64,000 nucleotides of DNA from Rhodovulum strictum (GTDB lineage: Bacteria > Pseudomonadota > Alphaproteobacteria > Rhodobacterales > Rhodobacteraceae): assembly GCF_009649175.1 (NCBI RefSeq), contig NZ_WJPO01000005.1, positions 62,001-126,000 on the forward strand. The letters run 5' to 3'. Under the pieces are notes generated by a model. That model saw only the letters and a list, made by a program, of their open reading frames with translations, did not search any database and was not told the DNA's origin. A program made the translations under genes and the position numbers. Positions 54,219 through 64,000 of the stretch are shown piece by piece. How positions within the stretch are numbered: the first letter of the stretch is position 1; the number at the start of each line of letters is the position of its first letter.

Positions 54219-54548
54219 TCAGTGCGAGATCATCCAGGGGCGCTTGGCCGGAAAACTCTTGGACCCGTCCGGGCGGTGCAGCGTGCCGCTGTTCTTCTTG
54301 GCGCCGCCCGAACAGCAGCCACAGCCCGGCCCGTGGCCCGAGCGTTTCGGCTCGTGGCGGGCGCGTTCGTTGGTCTCATGCGCCTTGCGGGTGGCGGCGC
54401 CCACGATGGCCAGCTTGGGCGGCGTGAACAGCGCGCGCGGCGCGGAGCCGCCGCAATCGGGACAGGCGGTGGGCTTGTCGTAATCGGCCATTGCGGCAAA
54501 GCCGGTGAAGGGGCCGCAGGTATCGCAGCAGTAATCGTAATAGGGCAT
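54219..54548 (-). CDS. fmdB: FmdB family zinc-ribbon protein
   Basis: A 109-residue protein with a zinc ribbon: CCDTC in YDYCCDTCGPF and CPDCGG. A Lys/Arg/His-rich tail follows with GCGCCSGG. FmdB of Methylophilus is a regulator of the formamide operon. Here it is the last gene of the formamidase/transporter operon, 53 bp after fmdA, which supports the same role. Confidence 0.88.
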   Translation of the reverse strand: MPYYDYCCDTCGPFTGFAAMADYDKPTACPDCGGSAPRALFTPPKLAIVGAATRKAHETNERARHEPKRSGHGPGCGCCSGGAKKNSGTLHRPDGSKSFPAKRPWMISH

Positions 54549-54601: not shown

Positions 54602-55831
54602 TCACAGATCGGGCGCCAGCGGCACGTCGATCGAGCCATCAAGGAACCTGGTCGGCCCGGCGCTGCCCGGCTTGATGTCGAAGGCAAAGATGTCGGTCGG
54701 CAGCCAGAGCGTTGCGCAGGCATTGGGGATGTCGACCACGCCCGAGATATGCCCCTGCACCGGCGCGGTGCCGAGGATCGCATAGGCCTGTGCGCCCGTA
54801 TAGCCGAATTTCTTGAGATATTCGATGGCGTTGAGGCAGGCCTGGCGATAGGCGATATGGACGTCGAGGTAATGCTGCTTGCCCTGTTCGTCGACGGAAA
54901 TCCCCTCGAAGATCAGGTAGTCGTCATATTTCGGCGCGATGGGCGAAGGCTTGAAGATCGGGTTCCGGATCCCGTATTTCGCCACGCCGTCCTTGATGAG
55001 ATCGACCTTCAGATGCAGCCAGCCCGCCATCTCGATGGCGCCGCAGAAGGTGATCTCGCCATCGCCCTGGCTGAAATGCAGGTCGCCCATCGAAAGCCCT
55101 GCGCCATCCACATAGACGGGGAAGTAGATCTTGCAGCCGCGGCTGAGATCCTTGATGTCGCAATTGCCGCCATGCTCGCGCGGCGGCACGGTGCGGGCAC
55201 CCTCGGCGGCGGCCTTGTCGCGGGCCTCGCCGGTCAGCTTGCCCATATGGGCGGACTGGGTGTTGGGCAGCGCTGCCAAGGGGGGCACGCGGGCCGGATC
55301 GGTGTCGAACAGCGCCTTTTCGCGGCTGTTCCACATGTCCAGCATCTTGCGGTCGGGCAGACAGCCGATCAGGCCGGGATGGATCAGCCCCGCATATTTC
55401 ACCCCCGGCACATGGCGCGACGAGGTGAACATGCCGTGGAAATCCCAGATCGACTTCTGCGCCTCGGGGAAATGCTCGGTCAGGAAGCCGCCGCCATTCT
55501 TCTTGGAGAAGAAGCCGTTGAAGCCCCAGAGCATTTCCTCCTTGGCGCCGATATCGAGGATCTCGACCACCAGAAGATCGCCGGGCTTGGCGCCCTTCAC
55601 GCCGACGGGACCGGACAGGTAATGCACCTGTTCCAACTCGACATCGCGCACGTCGGAGGCATCGTCATTGTTGAGGATCTGGCCGCCGGTCCAGTCATAG
55701 GTCTCGATCTTGAACTCGTCGCCGGGCTCGACCCAGACGGCGATGGGGATGTCGGGGTGCCAGCGGTTGTGCACGCAGTCATTCGTGTGCGGGCTTTCGC
55801 CGAGGTTCACCGAGATCAGGGTATCAGCCAT
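54602..55831 (-). CDS. fmdA: Formamidase
   Basis: Hydrolyses formamide to formate and ammonia (FmdA/AmdA family, PF03069, 409 residues). Typical blocks are NLGESPHTNDCVHNRWHPDI, TGGQILNNDDASDVR, REHGGNCDIKDLSRGCKIY, GDLHFSQGDGEITFCGA and the C-terminal ACATLWLPTDIF. ATG 55831 gives the family length; in-frame upstream codons would add twelve residues overlapping the ATPase gene. Cytoplasmic. The upstream ABC transporter genes presumably supply its substrate. Confidence 0.94.
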   Translation of the reverse strand: MADTLISVNLGESPHTNDCVHNRWHPDIPIAVWVEPGDEFKIETYDWTGGQILNNDDASDVRDVELEQVHYLSGPVGVKGAKPGDLLVVEILDIGAKEEMLWGFNGFFSKKNGGGFLTEHFPEAQKSIWDFHGMFTSSRHVPGVKYAGLIHPGLIGCLPDRKMLDMWNSREKALFDTDPARVPPLAALPNTQSAHMGKLTGEARDKAAAEGARTVPPREHGGNCDIKDLSRGCKIYFPVYVDGAGLSMGDLHFSQGDGEITFCGAIEMAGWLHLKVDLIKDGVAKYGIRNPIFKPSPIAPKYDDYLIFEGISVDEQGKQHYLDVHIAYRQACLNAIEYLKKFGYTGAQAYAILGTAPVQGHISGVVDIPNACATLWLPTDIFAFDIKPGSAGPTRFLDGSIDVPLAPDL

Positions 55832-55863
55832 GGTCTTCCTCTCTTTCTGCCAGGGTTGAAGGG

Positions 55864-56553
55864 TCAAACGGACAGGAACTTTGCGACCTTCGCCTCGTCG
55901 ATGCCGTCGCGCGGGCTGTCATGGACGAAGGTGCCGTTCTCGATCACCAGCACGCGGTCGGCGACGTCCAGGGCAAAGCTCAGCACCTGTTCCGAGACGA
56001 CGATGGACAGGCCGCGCTGGTCGCGGATGCGGCGCAGGGTGCGGGCCATCTCGCGGATGATGTTGGGCTGGATGCCCTCGGTCGGCTCGTCCAGCAGCAG
56101 CACCTTGGGGTCCGAGGCCAGCGCGCGGGCAATCGCAAGCTGCTGCTGCTGGCCGCCCGACAGGTTGCCGCCGCGGCGCGACTTCATCTCCAGCAGCACC
56201 GGAAAGAGTTCGTAGATATCGCCCGGCACCTCTTTCCTGCCGGTGACGGTCAGGCCGGTCTCGACATTTTCCTGCACCGTCATGGCGGAAAAGATCATCC
56301 GGCCCTGCGGCACATAGCCGATGCCGCTGGCCACGCGCTGGTGCGATTTCAGCCCCGTGACCTCGGTCTCGCCCACGCGCACGCTGCCGCCGGTGGCCGG
56401 CACGATGCCCATCAGCGTCTTCATCAGCGTGGTCTTGCCCATGCCGTTGCGGCCCATGATCGCGACGATCTCGCCCGGCGCGACGTTCAGGTGCAGCCCG
56501 TGCAGGATTTCCGACTGGCCATAGGCGGCATGCAGGTCGGTGACGTTCAGCAT
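55864..56553 (-). CDS. urtE: Urea/short-chain amide ABC transporter ATPase, UrtE-like
   Basis: A 229-residue ABC ATPase of the branched-chain amino acid/urea (HAAT) type. Walker A is IMGRNGMGKTTLMK, the signature is LSGGQQQQLAIARAL, Walker B is VLLLDEPTEGIQPN. The IMGRNGMGKTT and TEGIQPNI wording is typical of UrtE. It lies 12 bp after urtD and 32 bp before fmdA. With formamidase in the operon, the cargo is more probably formamide or short amides than urea alone. Confidence 0.92.
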   Translation of the reverse strand: MLNVTDLHAAYGQSEILHGLHLNVAPGEIVAIMGRNGMGKTTLMKTLMGIVPATGGSVRVGETEVTGLKSHQRVASGIGYVPQGRMIFSAMTVQENVETGLTVTGRKEVPGDIYELFPVLLEMKSRRGGNLSGGQQQQLAIARALASDPKVLLLDEPTEGIQPNIIREMARTLRRIRDQRGLSIVVSEQVLSFALDVADRVLVIENGTFVHDSPRDGIDEAKVAKFLSV

Positions 56554-56565
56554 CTTTCGCCCTCC

Positions 56566-57315
56566 TCAATGGCCCAGATAGACTTCGATGACCTTGGGAT
56601 CGTTCTTGACCTTGTCCATCTTGCCCTCGGACAGGGTCTTGCCCTGGTGCAGGACGGTGACGCGGGTCGCGATATCCTCGACAAAGCCCATGTCATGCTC
56701 GATCACGATGACCGAGCGGTGGTCGATGATGCGGTTCAGAAGCTCTGCGGTCTTCTTGCGCTCGGCCACCGACATGCCGGCAACGGGTTCGTCCAGCATC
56801 AGAAGTTCGGGATCCTGGATCAGCAGCATCCCGATTTCCAGCCATTGCTTCTGGCCATGGCTGAGAAAGGCGGCCTTTTCGTCCAGCAGATCGGCCAGAA
56901 AGATCGTCTCGGCGATCTCCTCGATCCGCGCCTTGACCTCGGCATCGCGGCGGAAGAACAGCGAGCCGAAGACCGAATGGCCGCGCGGATAGCTGAGTTC
57001 GAGGTTCTCGAAGACGCTGAGATCCTCGTAGACCGAGGGCGTCTGGAACTTGCGGCCCACGCCGGCCAGAACGATCTGGTCCTCGCGCATGGTCAGCAAT
57101 TCCTGGTCCTTGAACCGGACCGAGCCGCTTGTGGCCCTAGTCCGGCCGCAGATCAGGTCCAGAACGGTGGTCTTGCCCGCACCGTTCGGCCCGATCATCA
57201 CCCGGCATTCGTTGGGCTCGACATAGAAGGTCAGCCCGTCCACCGCCTTGAACCCGTCGAAGGAGACGGTCAGATCCTCGACCGACAGTACGAAACTGGT
57301 CTGATGAATTGACAT
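56566..57315 (-). CDS. urtD: Urea/short-chain amide ABC transporter ATPase, UrtD-like
   Basis: A 249-residue ABC ATPase, the second of the HAAT pair. Walker A is MIGPNGAGKTTVLDLI, the signature is LSHGQKQWLEIGMLL (the LSHGQKQW form is typical of UrtD), and Walker B is LLMLDEPVAGMS. The N-terminal VLSVEDLTVSFDGFKAVDGL is standard. ATG 57315, 9 bp after urtC. Confidence 0.92.
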   Translation of the reverse strand: MSIHQTSFVLSVEDLTVSFDGFKAVDGLTFYVEPNECRVMIGPNGAGKTTVLDLICGRTRATSGSVRFKDQELLTMREDQIVLAGVGRKFQTPSVYEDLSVFENLELSYPRGHSVFGSLFFRRDAEVKARIEEIAETIFLADLLDEKAAFLSHGQKQWLEIGMLLIQDPELLMLDEPVAGMSVAERKKTAELLNRIIDHRSVIVIEHDMGFVEDIATRVTVLHQGKTLSEGKMDKVKNDPKVIEVYLGH

Positions 57316-57324
57316 GGGATCACC

Positions 57325-58506
57325 TCACTCGGCTGCGGCCTTGGCCGCCGGGCGGTCCGGGGCCGATGCGGAATTGGCGGGGACCGGCGCGGCGGGGGGC
57401 GTGGCCCCTGCCCCGCGACCGGCGAACAGCTTGCGCAGGCGCGGCCTGACCTGTTCGGACCAGAGCCCGGCAAGCCCGTTCGGAAAGAACATCACGACCG
57501 CGATGAACAGCGCGCCGAGGCCCAGAAGCCAAAGTTCGGGGAAGCTTTCCGAAAGCGTGGTCTTGGCCCAGTTGACCAGAAGCGTACCATAAACCGCGCC
57601 CAGGATCGACAGGCGCCCCCCCACGGCGGCAAAGATCACCATCTCGATCGAGGGCACGATGCCGACCAGCGTGGGCGACATGAAGCCGACCTGAAGGGTG
57701 AACATCGCGCCGCCGATGCCAGCGAAGGCCGCGCCAAGGCAGAAGACGAAGACCTTGAAGCTGGCCACGTCATAGCCCGAGAAACGCACCCGGTCCTCCT
57801 GGTCGCGCATGGCGATCAGCAGGCGGCCCAGCTTGGAGCGGCGGACATATTGCGCGGCGAAGAGGCAGGCGAAGAGCAGCCCCGCATTGACGAAGTAGAG
57901 GATTTCCTTGGCCTCGTCGCTGCGGATGTCCCAGCCCTTTAGCGTGCGCAGGTCGGTGATGCCGTTGACCCCGCCGGTAAAGCCCTGCTGGCCGATGATG
58001 AGAATGGTCAGGATCGCGGCGATGGCCTGGGTGATGATCGCGAAATAGACGCCCCCCACCCGGCGGCGGAACATCGCGACCCCGATGATGAAGGCGAAGG
58101 CCACCGGCACCGCCACCACCGCGACCAGCGTGAAGGCCAGCGAGTTGAACGGCTCCCACCACCAGGGCAGCGCGGTGACCTGGTTCCAGTCCATGAAGTC
58201 GGGGATGCCCGGCGTGGACTGGATCGCGGTCGCCTCGGGCGTCGAGGCTTCGAGCTTGAGGAACATCGCCATGGCATAGCCGCCAAGCCCGAAGAACACC
58301 CCCTGCCCGAGGCTGAGGATTCCCCCAGCCCCCCAGCAGAGCACAAGGCCGATGGCGACGAAGGCATAGGACAGGTACTTGCCGAACAGGTTCAGCCGGA
58401 AGCTGTCCAGCGCCATCGGCAGGATCAGGAAGATCACTGCGGCGAGCAGGCCGAAATAGATCGCCTCTTCGCGGGTCAGGAAGCGGGTCTTGCGGTCGCT
58501 TTGCAT
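57325..58506 (-). CDS. urtC: Urea/short-chain amide ABC transporter permease, UrtC-like (FmdF)
   Basis: A 393-residue permease with about ten helices. GYDVASFKVFVFCLGAAFAG and VGGRLSILGAVYGTLLVNW are HAAT permease motifs, with the ATPase-coupling loop near DQEDRVRF (EAA-like). The C-terminal 35 residues form an Ala/Pro-rich cytoplasmic tail. It corresponds to the FmdF/UrtC subunit. 10 bp after urtB. Confidence 0.92.
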   Translation of the reverse strand: MQSDRKTRFLTREEAIYFGLLAAVIFLILPMALDSFRLNLFGKYLSYAFVAIGLVLCWGAGGILSLGQGVFFGLGGYAMAMFLKLEASTPEATAIQSTPGIPDFMDWNQVTALPWWWEPFNSLAFTLVAVVAVPVAFAFIIGVAMFRRRVGGVYFAIITQAIAAILTILIIGQQGFTGGVNGITDLRTLKGWDIRSDEAKEILYFVNAGLLFACLFAAQYVRRSKLGRLLIAMRDQEDRVRFSGYDVASFKVFVFCLGAAFAGIGGAMFTLQVGFMSPTLVGIVPSIEMVIFAAVGGRLSILGAVYGTLLVNWAKTTLSESFPELWLLGLGALFIAVVMFFPNGLAGLWSEQVRPRLRKLFAGRGAGATPPAAPVPANSASAPDRPAAKAAAE

Positions 58507-58516
58507 GGGTCTTCCC

Positions 58517-59443
58517 TCACTTGCGGAGTTTAAGGGCGAACAGGCCCTGCGGGCGCAGCATCAGGATGCCGACGACCACCAGAAGCGTGATGACCTTGGC
58601 CATCGAGCCCGAGAGGAAGAATTCGAGGACGGATTGCGCCTGGCTGATCGTGAAGGCCGAGGCGATCGTGCCCAGAAGGCTGCCCGCGCCGCCGAAGACG
58701 ACCACGAGGAAGGTATCGACGATGTAAAGCTGGCCCGAGGTCGGCCCGGTCGAGCCGATCATGGTGAATGCCGATCCCGCCACGCCCGCAATCCCGCAGC
58801 CGATGCCGAAGGTCAGCCGGTCGGTGCGTTCGGTATTGATGCCGACCGCACCGGCCATCACCCGGTTCTGGTTGATCGCGCGCACCTGCTGGCCCCAGCG
58901 CGAGCGGAACATCAGCGCATAGATAGAAACCGAGATCCCGACCGCCAGCACCATGACGAAGAGCCCATTGATCGGCACCTCGATCATGTCGGTCAGCGGC
59001 AGCGAGCCCATCATCCAGTTCGGAATGGTGACGCCCACCTCGCGCGCGCCAAAGACCGAGCGGTAGATCTGTTGAAGGATCAGGCTCAGCCCCCAGGTCG
59101 CCAGCAGCGTGTCCAGCGGGCGGCGATAAAGATGCCGTATCAACCCCCATTCCACCAGCATCCCCAGCGCACCCGAGGCGAGGAAGGCCAGCACCATCGC
59201 GACGAAGAAATAGATCGAGAACAGGTCGGGCAGATGCGTGGCGAAGGCGTTGGACACCAGATAGGTGACATAGGCGCCGAGGATCATGAACTCCCCATGC
59301 GCCATGTTGATGACGCCCATCTGGCCGAAGATGATCGCCAGACCCAGCGCCATCAGCACGAAGACCGAGAACAGTATCAGACCGGCGAAGCCCTGCATCG
59401 CGAAGATCGCGGTGAGCTCGCCCGCGGAATAGCCGGCAAACAT
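58517..59443 (-). CDS. urtB: Urea/short-chain amide ABC transporter permease, UrtB-like (FmdE)
   Basis: A 308-residue permease with about eight helices. GQMGVINMAHGEFMILGAYV is the LivH-type signature, and FGGAGSLLGTIASAFTI is the conserved second motif; the coupling loop is near AINQNRVMAGAVGIN. The start ATG 59443 is preceded by GGAGG at 7 bases. It lacks the long N-terminal domain found in some UrtB proteins and matches the shorter FmdE form. Confidence 0.92.
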   Translation of the reverse strand: MFAGYSAGELTAIFAMQGFAGLILFSVFVLMALGLAIIFGQMGVINMAHGEFMILGAYVTYLVSNAFATHLPDLFSIYFFVAMVLAFLASGALGMLVEWGLIRHLYRRPLDTLLATWGLSLILQQIYRSVFGAREVGVTIPNWMMGSLPLTDMIEVPINGLFVMVLAVGISVSIYALMFRSRWGQQVRAINQNRVMAGAVGINTERTDRLTFGIGCGIAGVAGSAFTMIGSTGPTSGQLYIVDTFLVVVFGGAGSLLGTIASAFTISQAQSVLEFFLSGSMAKVITLLVVVGILMLRPQGLFALKLRK

Positions 59444-59524
59444 CGGAAATCCTCCAGGCACGGGAAGGTAGGGGGAACGCGGCCCGGACAGCGGGACTTC
59501 TGCCGGGCCGCGCGGGTGCGCCGC

Positions 59525-60793
59525 TTACTGGTAGCCTTCCGGGAACGGATCGGGCTCGACCAGATCGGCGGTCTCGAAGACCACGTCATATTGCCCGTCC
59601 GCCCGGGCCCGGCCGACGCGGGTCTTGGACCACAGGTGATGGTTCTCGTGGATCTTGACATAGCCCTCGGGCGCGGTCGGAAGCTCGATGCCGGGCGAGG
59701 CCTCGCGTACCTTGTCGATGTCGAAGCTGCCCGCCTTCTCGACCGCCGCCTTCCACAGCCACGGCCCCAGATAGGCGGCTTGCGTCACGTCGCCGATCAC
59801 CATGTCGGCGCCCCACATCTTCTTGAACGCATCGACAAAGGCGATGTTGTTGGGATTGTCGAGCGACTGGAAGTATTTCATGCAGGCATAGGAGCCTTCG
59901 ACATTCTCGCCGCCGATGCCGCGGATCTCGTCCTCGGTGACGGAGATCGTCAGCACGATGGGCGATTCCTTGGTCGGGTCGATGCCCGCGGCCTTGAGCT
60001 GCTTGTAGAAGGCCACGTTCGAGCCGCCGACGACGATGGCATAGATCACGTCGGGCTTGCGCAGCTTGATCTTGTTGATGACCGAATTGAACTGCGTGTG
60101 GCCGAGCGGGTAGTATTCCTCGCCCACGACCTCGCAGCCCTCCATGAAGTTCTCGATATGCTTGCGGGCGATCTTGTTCGAGGTGCGCGGCCAGATATAG
60201 TCCGAGCCCAGCAGGTAGAAGCTTTTCGCGCCCTTGGTCTGGTTGACCCAGTCGAGCCCGGCAATGATCTGCTGGGTGGCTTCCTGGCCCGTGTAGATCA
60301 CGTTCGGCGACTGTTCGAGCCCCTCGTAGAAGGTGGGATAGTAGAGCATGCCGTTATGCTGTTCGAACACAGGCAGCACCGCCTTGCGGCTGGCCGAGGT
60401 CCAGCAGCCCATGACGGAGGCCACCTTGTCGTTGACCAGCAGCTTGCGCGCCTTTTCGGCGAATGTCGGCCAGTCCGAGGCGCCGTCTTCCTGGATGAAC
60501 TGTATCTTGCGGCCCAGCACGCCGCCCATCGCGTTGATCTGCTCGATGGCCAGTTTCTCGGCCTGGACCGAGCCGGTTTCCGAGATCGCCATGGTGCCCG
60601 TGACCGAATGCAGGATGCCGATGGTCACCGTGCTGTCGGTGACGGCAAGCCCGGTCGTGTTGACCGCGGCAGTCGGGAAGTCCTGGGCGCGCAGCCCCCT
60701 CGGCGCAAACAGCGATGCGGTCAGCGCGGCACCGCCGGCCAGAACGGCGCGCCGGCTCATGCCCGGCATGGTGGGTTTGGAAAAATCGGTCAT
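59525..60793 (-). CDS. fmdD: Periplasmic amide/urea-binding protein, UrtA/FmdD-like
   Basis: Substrate-binding component of 422 residues. A twin-arginine signal (SRRAVLAGGAALTASLFAP) suggests folded export. The mature type-I periplasmic binding fold starts TVTIGILHSVTGTMAISE, with GCWTSASRKAVLPVFEQ, LYYPTFYEG, YLLGSDYIWPRTSNKI and GGSNVAFYKQLKAAG, all typical of UrtA/FmdD. First gene of the seven-gene minus-strand operon, 81 bp before urtB. Its promoter must lie in the 197-bp divergent region with the 18-bp dyad. Confidence 0.93.
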   Translation of the reverse strand: MTDFSKPTMPGMSRRAVLAGGAALTASLFAPRGLRAQDFPTAAVNTTGLAVTDSTVTIGILHSVTGTMAISETGSVQAEKLAIEQINAMGGVLGRKIQFIQEDGASDWPTFAEKARKLLVNDKVASVMGCWTSASRKAVLPVFEQHNGMLYYPTFYEGLEQSPNVIYTGQEATQQIIAGLDWVNQTKGAKSFYLLGSDYIWPRTSNKIARKHIENFMEGCEVVGEEYYPLGHTQFNSVINKIKLRKPDVIYAIVVGGSNVAFYKQLKAAGIDPTKESPIVLTISVTEDEIRGIGGENVEGSYACMKYFQSLDNPNNIAFVDAFKKMWGADMVIGDVTQAAYLGPWLWKAAVEKAGSFDIDKVREASPGIELPTAPEGYVKIHENHHLWSKTRVGRARADGQYDVVFETADLVEPDPFPEGYQ

Positions 60794-60893
60794 CTCGCCT
60801 CCTTGTCAGATCAGACTGGTCCGTGTGTGGGAGAGCGGCGGGTGTGATCCCCGCCCGTGACCTGAAGGCTCGCAGAGAATGCCGCAGTGCAGT

Positions 60894-60911
60894 ATACGTC
60901 GAATGACGTAT
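60894..60911. promoter_or_regulatory. Perfect 18-bp dyad between the amide operon and the sensor kinase
   Basis: ATACGTC-GAAT-GACGTAT, 7-bp arms, lying 100 bases upstream of fmdD and 80 bases upstream of the kinase gene. A good candidate for the binding site of the kinase's response regulator, which would act on one or both promoters. Confidence 0.55.
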
Positions 60912-60990
60912 GGGACTGCGCGTTTTTCCACCTATCATCCCTTGCGGTGGGTGACCGCCGGGCGACGCCCGGGCGGTATGGCATGACGGG

Positions 60991-63900
60991 ATGACAGGGA
61001 ACATGCAGGTTCCGTTCAGCGCGACCGGCGGGCGGCGCAGCTATAACCGCTGGGTCGCCAACGAGACGATGGAGGATTTCGCGCTGCGCTTCACCGCGCG
61101 CCGCGCGCGCCGTTGGAGCCATGCGCGGGTTGCCAACACGGCGCTGGGCTCGATCTCGTTCCTGGCGCTGGAGGCAATCGGCGGCGCGATCACGCTGACC
61201 TACGGCTTTGATGCCGCGATCATCGCGATCATGCTGGTGGGGGCCGTGCTGTTCCTGACCGGCCTGCCGATCAGCTATTACGCCGCGCGCTACGGCGTCG
61301 ATATCGACCTTCTGACCCGCGGCGCGGGCTTTGGCTATATCGGCTCGACCGTCACCTCGCTGATCTATGCCAGCTTCACCTTCATCTTCTTCGCGCTCGA
61401 GGCCGCGATCCTGGCGCTGGCGCTGGATCTGTGCTTCGGCATCCCGGTCACGCTTGGCTACATCCTGTCGGCGCTGATCGTGATCCCGCTGGTGGTGAAC
61501 GGGTTTTCCAAGATCTCGGCGTTCCAGACCTGGACCCAGCCGTTCTGGATCGTGCTGCACCTGATGCCCTTTGCCTTTCTCGCCTGGGCGGGGACCGATC
61601 TGGGCGTCTGGACCGGGTTCGACGGCGCCCATGGCAAGGAGGGGGCGACGATCCTGATGATCGGCGCGGCCTCGGGCGTGGCGCTGTCGCTGATCGCGCA
61701 GATCGGCGAACAGGTCGATTTCCTGCGCTTCCTGCCCGAACCCAAGACGCGGGCCGAGCGGCGCAAATGGTGGGCGGCGCTGCTGGCCGCGGGGCCGGGC
61801 TGGTCGGTGCTGGGCGTGGCCAAGATGCTGGCGGGATCCTTTCTGGTGACGCTGGTGGTCGCGGCGGGCGTGCCTGCAAGGGACGCCACCGATCCGACGC
61901 GGATGTATCACACCGCCTTCGAACAGGTTCTGGCCTCGCCCGCGCTGGCGCTGGCGCTGACCGGGGCCTTCGTGATCCTGAGCCAGCTCAAGATCAACGT
62001 GACCAATGCCTATGCCGGCTCCATCGCCTGGTCGAACTTCTTCTCGCGGCTGACCCATTCCCATCCGGGCCGCGTGGTCTGGCTGGTGTTCAACGTCGCG
62101 ATTGCGCTGATGCTGATGGAACTGGGCGTGTTCGGGGCGCTGGAACATATCCTGGGCCTTTATTCCCATGTCGCGCTGGCCTGGATCGGGGCGCTGACCG
62201 CGGATCTGGTGGTCAACAAGCCGCTCGGCCTGAGCCCGCGGGGGATCGAGTTCCGCCGCGCGCATCTATACGACATCAACCCGGTCGGCATGGGGGCGAT
62301 GGGCGGCGCGGTGGTGATTGCCTTTGTCGCCCATGGCGGGCTGATGGGCGAAACGGCCGAGGCGCTGTCGGCCTTCATCGCGCTCGGCACCGCCTTCGGC
62401 ATGGCGCCGGTGATCGCCTGGGCCACGCGCGGGCAGTTCTACATCGCCCGCCCGCTGCCCCAGTTCGCTGCCCCCGCGCGGCACGAGACGGGCGCGACCT
62501 GCGCATGCTCGATCTGCGAATACCGCTTCGATGCCGAGGACATGACCCATTGCCCGTTCTATGCCGGGCCGATCTGTTCGCTGTGCTGCACGCTGGACAG
62601 TTCCTGCCGGGACAGTTGCAAGCCGCATGGCCGGGTCGATGCGCTGGCGGTGCGGATGCTGCACGCGGCCCTGCCCGACCCGGTGGCACGCGCGCTGATG
62701 TCGCGGCTGTCGGTCTTTTTGATCGGCACGGCGATTCCGGCGGCGATCATCGGGGGGCTTTTGCTGCTGGTGCGGGCGCATGCCGCCAGCCCCGATCTGG
62801 ACGCGGTGCTGACGGTGATCTTCTGCACCGCGCTGGTGGTGATCGGGGTGATCGCCTGGACGCTGATCCTGGCCATCGAAAGCCAGCACAAGGCCCGGGA
62901 CGAGGCCGACCTGCAAACCCAGCGGCTGCTGCGCGAAATCCGGGCGCATGAGCGCACCGATGCCCAGTTGCAGAAGGAAAAGGAAAAGGCCGAGGCCGCA
63001 AACCTGGCCAAGACGCGCTACATGGCCGGGATCAGCCACGAGCTGCGCACGCCGCTGAACGCGATCTACGGCTTTGCCCAGGTGCTGGAAAACAGCCCCG
63101 AGATCCCGGCCGGGCGGCGCGAGGCGGTGCGCGCGATAAGGCGCGGCTCGGAACATCTGGCGGGGCTGATCGAGAACCTGCTCGACATCTCGAAGATCGA
63201 GGCCGGGCGGCTGGAAATCTATCGCGACCGGATCAACCTGCCGATCCTGTTGCGCCATGTCGCGGCGATCTTCGAGGCCCCTGCACGCGAGAAGGGGCTG
63301 GATTTCGGCATCCATACCAGCGGCAATCTGCCCGAATGGATCGATTTCGACGAGAAGCGGCTGCGCCAGATCCTGATCAACCTGCTGTCGAACGCCATCG
63401 GCTATACCGAGCGCGGCTCGGTGTCGCTGAGCGTGCGCTATCGCAACGAGGTGGCGGTGATCGAGGTCAGCGACACCGGCATCGGCATCGCGCCCGATCA
63501 ACTGGACCGGATCTGGAAACCCTTCGAGCGGCTGACGCCCCGGGGCGGCGGGCCGGGCTCGGGGCTGGGGCTGACGATCACGCGGCTGCTGGTCGAGATC
63601 CTGGGCGGCGAGATCACCGTGGACAGCGTGCCGGGCGAGGGCACGACCTTTCGCGTGCGGCTGATGCTGCCCTCGGTGCTGCCCGAGGCCGACCAGCCCC
63701 GCGCCGCCGCGCCCGCGCCCGAGCGGCTGAAGGCACGGGGCTATCTGGGGCCGCGCAAGACGATCATGGCGGTCGATGACGATCTGGACCATCTGCGGCT
63801 GCTGGATACCGTACTGCGGCCGATGGGGTTTCTGGTGCAGACCGTTCCCGATGCCGAAACCGCGCTGGGTATCCTGGACGATTGCGCGCCAGACCTGTTC

Positions 63901-64000
63901 CTGCTCGACATCGACATGCCGGGAATGGATGGCTGGGAACTGGCGCAGCGGCTGCGCGCCCGGCCCGAGCACCGATCGACGCCCATCGTGATGGTCACGG
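60991..64000 (+). CDS. NCS1-transporter-like / hybrid histidine kinase fusion (3' end outside window)
   Basis: At least 1003 residues, open to the right edge. Residues about 45-470 form a 10-12-helix purine/cytosine-permease (NCS1)-like body. A nine-cysteine cluster follows (Cys504, 506, 509, 521, 529, 532, 533, 539, 543), then two membrane helices (about 575-600 and 607-630) and a coiled coil. HisKA carries His683 in GISHELRTPLNAI. The ATPase domain has N box RQILINLLSNAIGYTERG and G boxes DTGIGI and GSGLGL. A receiver domain has Asp973 in LLDIDMPGMDG. ATG 60991 was taken; ATG 61003 is possible. Divergent from the amide operon, so it probably senses amides or their transport; inferred. Confidence 0.88.
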   Translation, partial: MTGNMQVPFSATGGRRSYNRWVANETMEDFALRFTARRARRWSHARVANTALGSISFLALEAIGGAITLTYGFDAAIIAIMLVGAVLFLTGLPISYYAARYGVDIDLLTRGAGFGYIGSTVTSLIYASFTFIFFALEAAILALALDLCFGIPVTLGYILSALIVIPLVVNGFSKISAFQTWTQPFWIVLHLMPFAFLAWAGTDLGVWTGFDGAHGKEGATILMIGAASGVALSLIAQIGEQVDFLRFLPEPKTRAERRKWWAALLAAGPGWSVLGVAKMLAGSFLVTLVVAAGVPARDATDPTRMYHTAFEQVLASPALALALTGAFVILSQLKINVTNAYAGSIAWSNFFSRLTHSHPGRVVWLVFNVAIALMLMELGVFGALEHILGLYSHVALAWIGALTADLVVNKPLGLSPRGIEFRRAHLYDINPVGMGAMGGAVVIAFVAHGGLMGETAEALSAFIALGTAFGMAPVIAWATRGQFYIARPLPQFAAPARHETGATCACSICEYRFDAEDMTHCPFYAGPICSLCCTLDSSCRDSCKPHGRVDALAVRMLHAALPDPVARALMSRLSVFLIGTAIPAAIIGGLLLLVRAHAASPDLDAVLTVIFCTALVVIGVIAWTLILAIESQHKARDEADLQTQRLLREIRAHERTDAQLQKEKEKAEAANLAKTRYMAGISHELRTPLNAIYGFAQVLENSPEIPAGRREAVRAIRRGSEHLAGLIENLLDISKIEAGRLEIYRDRINLPILLRHVAAIFEAPAREKGLDFGIHTSGNLPEWIDFDEKRLRQILINLLSNAIGYTERGSVSLSVRYRNEVAVIEVSDTGIGIAPDQLDRIWKPFERLTPRGGGPGSGLGLTITRLLVEILGGEITVDSVPGEGTTFRVRLMLPSVLPEADQPRAAAPAPERLKARGYLGPRKTIMAVDDDLDHLRLLDTVLRPMGFLVQTVPDAETALGILDDCAPDLFLLDIDMPGMDGWELAQRLRARPEHRSTPIVMVT

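Follow-up and report, generated by a model that had tools for sequence, protein, structure and literature searches.

What does a sensor kinase detect, and what does it control, when its N-terminal half is built like a permease? The question is raised by the gene beginning at position 60,991 of a 64,000-nucleotide stretch of Rhodovulum strictum DNA (contig NZ_WJPO01000005.1, positions 62,001 to 126,000; hereafter the window), where one frame encodes a permease body of the NCS1 type, a cysteine-rich module, two extra membrane helices and a hybrid histidine kinase, opposite an operon for formamide uptake and hydrolysis. In our view, this protein is an NCS1-bodied receptor kinase whose signal is formamide (in certain relatives, urea) and which activates urtABCDE-fmdAB, a reading to which we give a probability of about 0.7. 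That the kinase controls the uptake and hydrolysis of formamide or urea is highly probable. The parts of the protein are as follows.

60991..64000, + strand: hybrid histidine kinase with NCS1 body, 1,003 of 1,128 codons inside the window; conserved second ATG at 61003
61120..62427, + strand: permease body of NCS1 type (residues 44-479) with 12 predicted membrane helices (AlphaFold2 model, Foldseek)
62497..62619, + strand: cysteine module, residues 503-543; beta-hairpin, beta-hairpin and helix in the model
62704..62907, + strand: two extra membrane helices, residues 572-597 and 603-639 (AlphaFold2 model), the second extending towards the kinase
63010..63207, + strand: HisKA, residues 674-739, with phospho-acceptor His683 at 63037-63039 (Pfam)
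63349..63669, + strand: HATPase_c, residues 787-893 (Pfam)
63763..64000, + strand, extending past the window: receiver domain from residue 925, with Asp973 at 63907-63909 (Pfam)

The initial annotation, made from the sequence of the window, had described one uninterrupted chimeric frame, and this description holds. The frame runs unbroken from 60991 to the window edge, which falls within the gene; the remainder, read from the corresponding contig of the genome (C55), ends at contig position 126377 and gives a full length of 1,128 residues. Five of six copies from the same genus, the window's included, are uninterrupted, and with the relatives from other genomes described below, the fusion is no accident of one assembly. 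HisKA, HATPase_c and the receiver (residues 925-1003, the window part) were found by Pfam with expectation values (E) of 2.4e-15 or better, and the phospho-accepting His683 and Asp973 are the residues first named; the protein thus has all the parts of a hybrid histidine kinase, and Pfam finds no PAS domain in it. The initial annotation had suggested looking for a response regulator to the right of the window, and one is there: a gene of 306 residues, combining a receiver and a LuxR-type DNA-binding domain, overlaps the kinase gene by 11 nucleotides (nt). The nearest named relatives of the kinase, from Rhodovulum tesquicola and R. steppense, share 96% identity over the first 593 residues, and the record names of its relatives are loose ('ATP-binding protein', 'response regulator', 'ArcB').

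With regard to the N-terminal half, sequence models are silent. The NCS1 family model PF02133 matched 0 of 56 fused sequences at E 1 (window included), a search of the R. strictum genome with it was empty, and a sequence search of the PDB with the body, two profiles and a related Klebsiella permease gave no relevant match. The silence of Pfam might suggest a protein other than a transporter; this candidate was rejected, the predicted fold being clearly NCS1, as had been proposed. The AlphaFold2 model of residues 1-640 has a mean predicted local distance difference test score of 86.3 and a predicted template modelling score of 0.87, and the first five PDB structures retrieved with it by Foldseek are all CodB/Mhp1 (template modelling score by target length 0.65-0.76). 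SLC5 structures rank below NCS1, and no sodium-symporter family is among the Pfam matches. Local alignment of the body against CodB by hhalign gave a probability of 29% and an E of 6e-4. Known NCS1 proteins have their N-terminus inside, and with this orientation the loops of the predicted topology carry 28 basic residues inside versus 3 outside. By this bias, the cysteine module lies on the cytoplasmic side, and the two extra helices, which the model contains as first described, form a hairpin leading to the kinase.

The pocket was compared with that of E. coli CodB, aligned in three MAFFT modes at 16-24% sequence identity. In transmembrane helices 3 and 6 (TM3, TM6), the three modes agree in replacing CodB Gln105 by Thr130, Trp108 by Phe133 and Phe204 by Leu234. 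Excerpts of the CodB paper (PMC9379551) describe the aromatic pair holding the substrate as conserved throughout NCS1; here, the sandwich is not retained, as Phe133 stays aromatic and Leu234 does not. The loss of one pocket aromatic would be expected for a small ringless ligand, and is a lead to the ligand rather than a proof of it. In TM8, CodB Asn275, Thr278 and Thr279 correspond to invariant Lys334, Val337 and Thr338, an alignment that is less sure, with a three-residue gap inside the helix and a gapless reading by eye that puts Lys334 on Thr278 instead of Asn275. All 56 sequences keep Arg246 and Tyr341, which correspond to Arg216 and Tyr285, a conserved pair in CodB. Lys334 is also common to stand-alone permeases of the same branch, and CbrA, which excerpts of PMC13022988 describe as proton-driven, carries a lysine at its Na2 site. 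These residues of the Na2 region are again leads, and not proof of coupling. Overall, the substrate pocket is altered but strongly conserved.

Between residues 504 and 543, the window protein has nine cysteines. Eight of them (Cys506, 509, 521, 529, 532, 533, 539 and 543) are invariant in 87/87 sequences, a set made of the window, six plasmid records retrieved with the first 593 residues in full, one stand-alone permease and genome-scan relatives (L092 left out for a gap in the module), and drawn for the most part from a scan that used a module-derived pattern. Cys504 is present in only 6 of the 87, and in the permease core, numerous positions show the same degree of conservation as the module cysteines. 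A treble clef consists of a CxxC knuckle, a beta-hairpin and a helix starting at a second CxxC; the predicted order of strands and helix and the order of the cysteines fit this motif, Cys506/509 falling on the knuckle and Cys529/532 where the helix begins. Foldseek with the isolated module returned nothing below E 0.5, the best match being a RING finger (E 0.53), and likeness to RING, PHD, FYVE and LIM structures was not significant; the zinc ribbon, RING and FYVE models of Pfam gave weak, non-significant matches in single members of 40 (best E 0.013).

The initial annotation had seen in the cluster a linker that joins the permease to the kinase. A better description is that of a C-terminal tail of this permease branch, because stand-alone permeases without any kinase carry it: those of Klebsiella and Acinetobacter keep exactly the equivalents of Cys506/509/529/532 in a shorter version and that of Methylovirgula has all eight cysteines, with one left in Arthrobacter. 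On these sequences, the kinase would have been added behind the tail, or lost from behind it. As to the zinc or redox role first proposed, the module quite probably binds zinc; a structural zinc is likelier than a redox cofactor, given the predicted treble clef and the two stand-alone relatives that keep the four cysteines of one site. The idea of a cluster unique to this genome, or of a free-moving domain, was rejected, since all 57 strong hits among 398 genomes lie in frames of at least 894 residues. The 30 loci fetched of these 57 (the R. strictum genome included) all have permease and kinase, and a 58th hit (genome G127) is weak and lies in a 100-residue frame.

The genes facing the kinase are all on the opposite strand.

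59525..60793, - strand: UrtA-type substrate-binding protein of an amide/urea ATP-binding cassette (ABC) transporter (TIGR03407, 550.6 bits, cut-off 492.75)
58517..59461, - strand: UrtB-type permease (TIGR03409)
57325..58506, - strand: UrtC-type permease (TIGR03408)
56566..57315, - strand: UrtD-type ATPase (TIGR03411)
55864..56553, - strand: UrtE-type ATPase (TIGR03410)
54602..55867, - strand: FmdA formamidase (NF045496, 762.3 bits, cut-off 500)
54219..54548, - strand: FmdB-family zinc-ribbon protein with RPWMISH domain (NF053663, 141.9 bits, cut-off 120; TIGR02605, 51.8 bits, cut-off 31.3)

The kinase gene is thus divergent from urtA-urtB-urtC-urtD-urtE-fmdA and the FmdB-family gene, each above its NCBIfam cut-off, which bears out the formamide uptake operon recognised at the outset. 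The NF053663 match spans the full length of the FmdB-family protein, whose C-terminus is PWMISH. A second UrtA is encoded elsewhere in the genome (G000, C7:17364-18455); it perhaps belongs to an ordinary urea system, and the window copy may be specialised.

The association recurs in other bacteria. A scan of genome contigs found 115 relatives, of which the best 80 were kept; the search patterns were derived from N-terminal and module sequence, and thus favour both. Cysteine modules were readable in all 80 loci (in L092 only in part), and neighbouring genes were counted at 35% identity or more in the DNA around the kinase, some contigs being cut. Among the best 80 of the 115, fmdA is found in 54 loci, urtA in 65, an aliphatic amidase in 4 and the urease gene ureC in 2, and at least one of fmdA, urtA, urtB, urtC, amiE and ureC in 68. 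A divergent urtA lies within 700 nt of the kinase in 57/80, and in 64/80 the start of a regulator gene is at most 200 nt from the kinase end. In L018, L020, L087, L091 and L097, genes for formamidase, amidase or urease lie next to the kinase, and the surrounding DNA contains no complete urtA. On the Klebsiella plasmid CP024516.1 (L017), kinase and regulator are opposite urtABCDE-amiF. This cluster is apparently the 'UTS' of a preprint on Klebsiella CG307, which comprises UrtA, UrtB, UrtC and AmiF and in which the words histidine kinase, two-component and sensor are absent; the pair next to it now indicates its likely regulator.

A candidate binding site for the regulator emerged from a k-mer count in the gaps between urtA and the kinase, as TACGTC-N4-GACGTA. 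In the window, it is placed midway between the two genes, in a perfect and extended form:

60894..60911, no strand: predicted operator ATACGTC-GAAT-GACGTAT (k-mer count, gap conservation)

The site is exact in 39 of 62 homologous gaps, with one mismatch in 16 and two in 3; the gaps are not independent (L019/L034 and L037/L040 gave identical values), and L076 and L078, with the kinase 4-5 kb away, were left out. In the same gaps, 12 palindromes with shuffled half-sites never came below two mismatches, and spacers of 2, 3, 5 or 6 never below three. One control half-site, TCGATC, is common in the loci as a whole (45 matches in 35 loci over 1.54 Mb, versus 62 in 58 for the site; 0-8 for the other 11 controls) and is not common in the gaps. 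On the Klebsiella plasmid, a copy with one mismatch lies between the kinase-regulator pair and urtABCDE-amiF. A sigma-54 motif was seen in 1/64 of the urtA-kinase gaps.

Where the kinase lies away, the site stays with the target genes. In Sinorhizobium (S. meliloti pSymB; L013, L176), where kinase and regulator correspond to SMb20609/SMb20610, a copy with one mismatch is located 98 nt before the annotated urtA, at 7.9 kb from the kinase frame in L013; two Pseudorhodoferax loci have it in the urtA-amidase gap, as defined by likely start codons, and Catenovulum upstream of a porin-urtA run, with the kinase elsewhere in both cases. The R. strictum genome contains one site without mismatch and one place with two; allowing up to three mismatches, 12 sites were counted, versus 29 for the reversed control, so that no wider regulon is indicated. 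Exact copies are rare, being found in 5/190 alphaproteobacterial genomes, in two of them by the kinase (R. strictum and G587). An exact extra copy precedes a frame without Pfam match at L084:13083-13098. Around the palindrome of the window (60880-60935), the consensus of 55 sequences shows conserved outer half-sites, GCAGT and ACTGC, at unequal distances, which are perhaps the site of a second protein or promoter elements.

The distribution of the fused protein was surveyed in 398 Pseudomonadota genomes, the fusion being judged by frames of at least 894 residues and the searches for body, FmdA and UrtA scoring the best four candidates per genome. The module was found in 53 genomes (weakly in G127), the body in 55 (weak or partial in G234, G253 and G295) and the fused protein in 52, which makes the fusion a conserved family and not the unfamiliar oddity of one genome that it first seemed. 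The kinase occurs in 39 of the 40 FmdA-bearing genomes (G173 is the sole exception) versus 13 of the 358 others (Fisher p 1e-41, uncorrected for kinship). Among the matches listed, at least nine of these 13 genomes have, by coordinates, a UrtA within 10 kb on the same contig. A search of 72,556 plasmid records for relatives of the first 593 residues gave 527 records, of which Klebsiella accounts for 342. Within the genus of the window, 5 of 16 genomes have FmdA over the cut-off, and these are the same 5 that have an intact kinase. In a further genome of the genus (G013; L182, C1:945000-963000), urtABCDE and most of fmdA are absent from the locus, and an fmdA remnant abuts the kinase start. Frame changes disrupt its kinase, together with an insertion in which one frame resembles a transposase, and the matches of the regulator change frame too. 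Such decay, at a locus from which the presumed targets are deleted, would be expected of their regulator.

The mechanism that we propose starts with the NCS1 body, whose usual central site would bind, from the outer side, a small acyclic amide, namely formamide in R. strictum and urea in certain relatives. The resulting conformational change would pass through the cytoplasmic treble-clef zinc module at the permease C-terminus and the two-helix membrane hairpin to the HisKA/HATPase core. Phosphate would then be transferred to the LuxR-type regulator of the overlapping gene, the kinase's own receiver possibly tuning the transfer. We infer that the phosphorylated regulator binds TACGTC-N4-GACGTA midway between the operons, where it would switch on urtABCDE-fmdAB, and probably its own operon too, as an activator rather than a repressor. 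The initial annotation had seen in the permease part a sensor, or sensing transporter, for short amides or urea. An amide or urea remains the probable signal and the link with the formamide operon is upheld; of the two roles, that of direct amide receptor is the more credible for the body, and we consider it probable, and transport by the fused body rather doubtful.

Several observations weigh against this mechanism. Four of the 62 gaps (L014, L067, L068, L069) have no site at up to two mismatches, and no copy at up to one mismatch was found in the Acinetobacter, Paracoccus kondratievae and Methylovirgula loci or in the urea- or urease-linked loci L091, L093, L098 and L099, where the regulators perhaps recognise a different site, or none at all. 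For three of the five exact alphaproteobacterial copies, no tested gene lies within 1.5 kb, and the one-mismatch copy of L080 (219-234) is at an unrelated frame. In 12 of the 80 loci, partly short contigs and partly from myxobacteria and betaproteobacteria, the DNA around the kinase holds no named amide or urea gene, and the other neighbours in such loci were not informative. With respect to signalling, Pfam finds no HPt domain in the window part of the protein while the kinase carries a receiver of its own, which makes the proposed route of phosphate to the regulator less certain. Lastly, excerpts of PMC7096432 report that CbrA without its transporter domain still allowed target expression, and that histidine left CbrA autokinase activity and phosphotransfer unchanged; a transporter body, therefore, need not be the ligand sensor.

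These points bear on who senses what, and three other accounts have to be weighed against direct reception of an amide. The body might be a working amide or urea transporter, the kinase reading flux or the occupancy of the transport cycle, as in a true transceptor. CbrA transports histidine through its SLC5 body (PMC7096432 and PMC13022988, in excerpt), the invariance of Arg246 and Tyr341 would suit a functional permease, and neither Methylovirgula nor P. kondratievae has a full urt set near the kinase, the former showing a short urtA-like fragment and the latter another ABC transporter. Against this, the Na2 region departs from CodB at Lys334 and Val337, although Thr338 is kept from Thr279; since the stand-alone permeases share Lys334, this change argues against sodium coupling and not against transport. 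We regard this account as a tentative second choice. A kinase that responds to nitrogen status, or to a partner protein such as UrtA, instead of an amide bound by itself, is unlikely. The available portion of PMC7096432 gives the true signal of CbrA as unknown, and the S. meliloti orthologue SMb20609, an uncharacterised histidine kinase, is repressed by PhaR according to excerpts of PMC12542648, a tie to carbon storage; the orthologue was matched by position (kinase hit at pSymB ~1622198, published motif at 1622073-1622093). However, the five loci cited above with formamidase, amidase or urease genes have no full urtA in the surrounding DNA, and the substrate pocket, though altered, is strongly conserved.

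Even less likely is an account in which the cysteine module is the sensor, of zinc, redox or metal state, with the permease body only a membrane anchor or interaction surface. The constancy of the eight cysteines and the weak Pfam likeness to zinc ribbon, RING and FYVE would be in keeping with it. Yet the module, in its eight- or four-cysteine form, also belongs to permeases that have no kinase, many positions of the permease core are equally conserved, and the neighbouring genes are those of amide and urea use. Reception of a small amide by the NCS1 body thus remains our preferred reading.

The closest known systems are CbrA/CbrB, CrbS (MxtR)/CrbR and RpuS/RpuR. As far as their excerpted descriptions go, they share with the window kinase an N-terminal transporter body of LeuT fold, a small coupling domain, a histidine kinase and a neighbouring response regulator, and CbrA-type systems likewise control the uptake or use of small nutrients. 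However, the body of the window kinase is NCS1-like and not SLC5, the coupling element appears to be a cysteine-rich treble clef followed by a two-helix hairpin instead of the four-helix STAC, and PAS is absent by Pfam. The stretch between body and kinase consists of the cysteine-rich module and short helices, and no STAC model was searched by name. The window kinase is, therefore, built like a CbrA-type transceptor kinase, of which it is a new variation, without being a member of the CbrA family by its body. It provides a case besides the SLC5 kinases in which a LeuT-fold transporter has apparently turned receptor, with a different coupling element. The word NCS1 is absent from the main texts of the SLC5/STAC kinase papers searched, PMC7096432 and PMC13022988 among them. 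CodB and Mhp1 share with the window body the predicted fold, and CodB the Arg216-Tyr285 pair, whereas the window body differs by the missing Pfam match, the loss of one substrate aromatic, the altered Na2 residues, the cysteine tail and the fused kinase. MetT, an NCS1 metformin transporter, takes a nitrogen-rich ringless substrate and is a precedent for acyclic ligands (PMC13390362, in excerpt); unlike the window protein, it is a transporter only, and is set beside this branch by substrate and not by relatedness.

Regarding the target genes, the Methylophilus fmdCABDEF cluster resembles that of the window in uniting a formamidase, a putative positive regulator and a short-amide/urea transporter in one inducible cluster, but no sensor kinase appears in the account given by the available text of a review (PMC10781810). 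According to work of the 1990s cited in this review, formamide and urea induce the fmd genes; its main text never uses 'two-component', and it uses 'kinase' a single time, in naming carbamate kinase. Among the matches listed in open-licence PMC full text, the passages returned hold no description of the fusion, the cysteine module or the site, PMC13209695 and PMC13296017 sharing some words with them. The kinase family is widespread and no name was found for it; a kinase, a regulator and a DNA site can now be named for this pathway, going with 39/40 formamidase-bearing genomes in the sample.

The stand-alone permeases give a further view of the family. In Klebsiella, a so-called 'cytosine permease' (L015:6944-8551), encoded behind ureG, is a relative of 43-44% identity; it belongs to the permease branch of the window protein and has a tail with four of the eight cysteines, but lacks the kinase and is matched by PF02133 (E 1.1e-9), which does not match the Arthrobacter and Methylovirgula permeases. 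Urea permease is a better guess for this gene. In Acinetobacter, kinase and regulator are divergent to a stand-alone sister permease, and in 17.5 kb of this locus the only further match to fmd, urt or urease genes is a general ABC ATPase. In Methylovirgula, the stand-alone permease is downstream of the regulator, and fmdA, fmdB and an amidase gene are nearby. Most simply, the kinase body and its sister permease would deal with the same compounds, small amides or urea.

In an unrooted tree of 44 rows, the four stand-alone permeases group apart from the 39 fused proteins (Shimodaira-Hasegawa-like approximate likelihood ratio test, 98), the outgroup branch being too long to root it and give the order of fusion. 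Among the alignments, A2 and A3 are without L092, A3 holding 40 of 52 prepared rows, and A4 and A5 consist of 26 and 29 chosen rows. It appears to us an evenly balanced proposition that this is an unnamed widespread family of NCS1-bodied formamide/urea receptor kinases, born by fusion of a kinase to a zinc-finger-tailed NCS1 amide/urea permease, whose stand-alone 'cytosine permeases' are misnamed urea/amide transporters and whose receptor, in some bacteria, controls its own sister transporter. Another pairing of NCS1 and amide genes was seen in genome G252 (L161:7949-9442), where a distant NCS1-type permease (29% identity) is followed by amidase-like and UrtA-like frames up to 12373.

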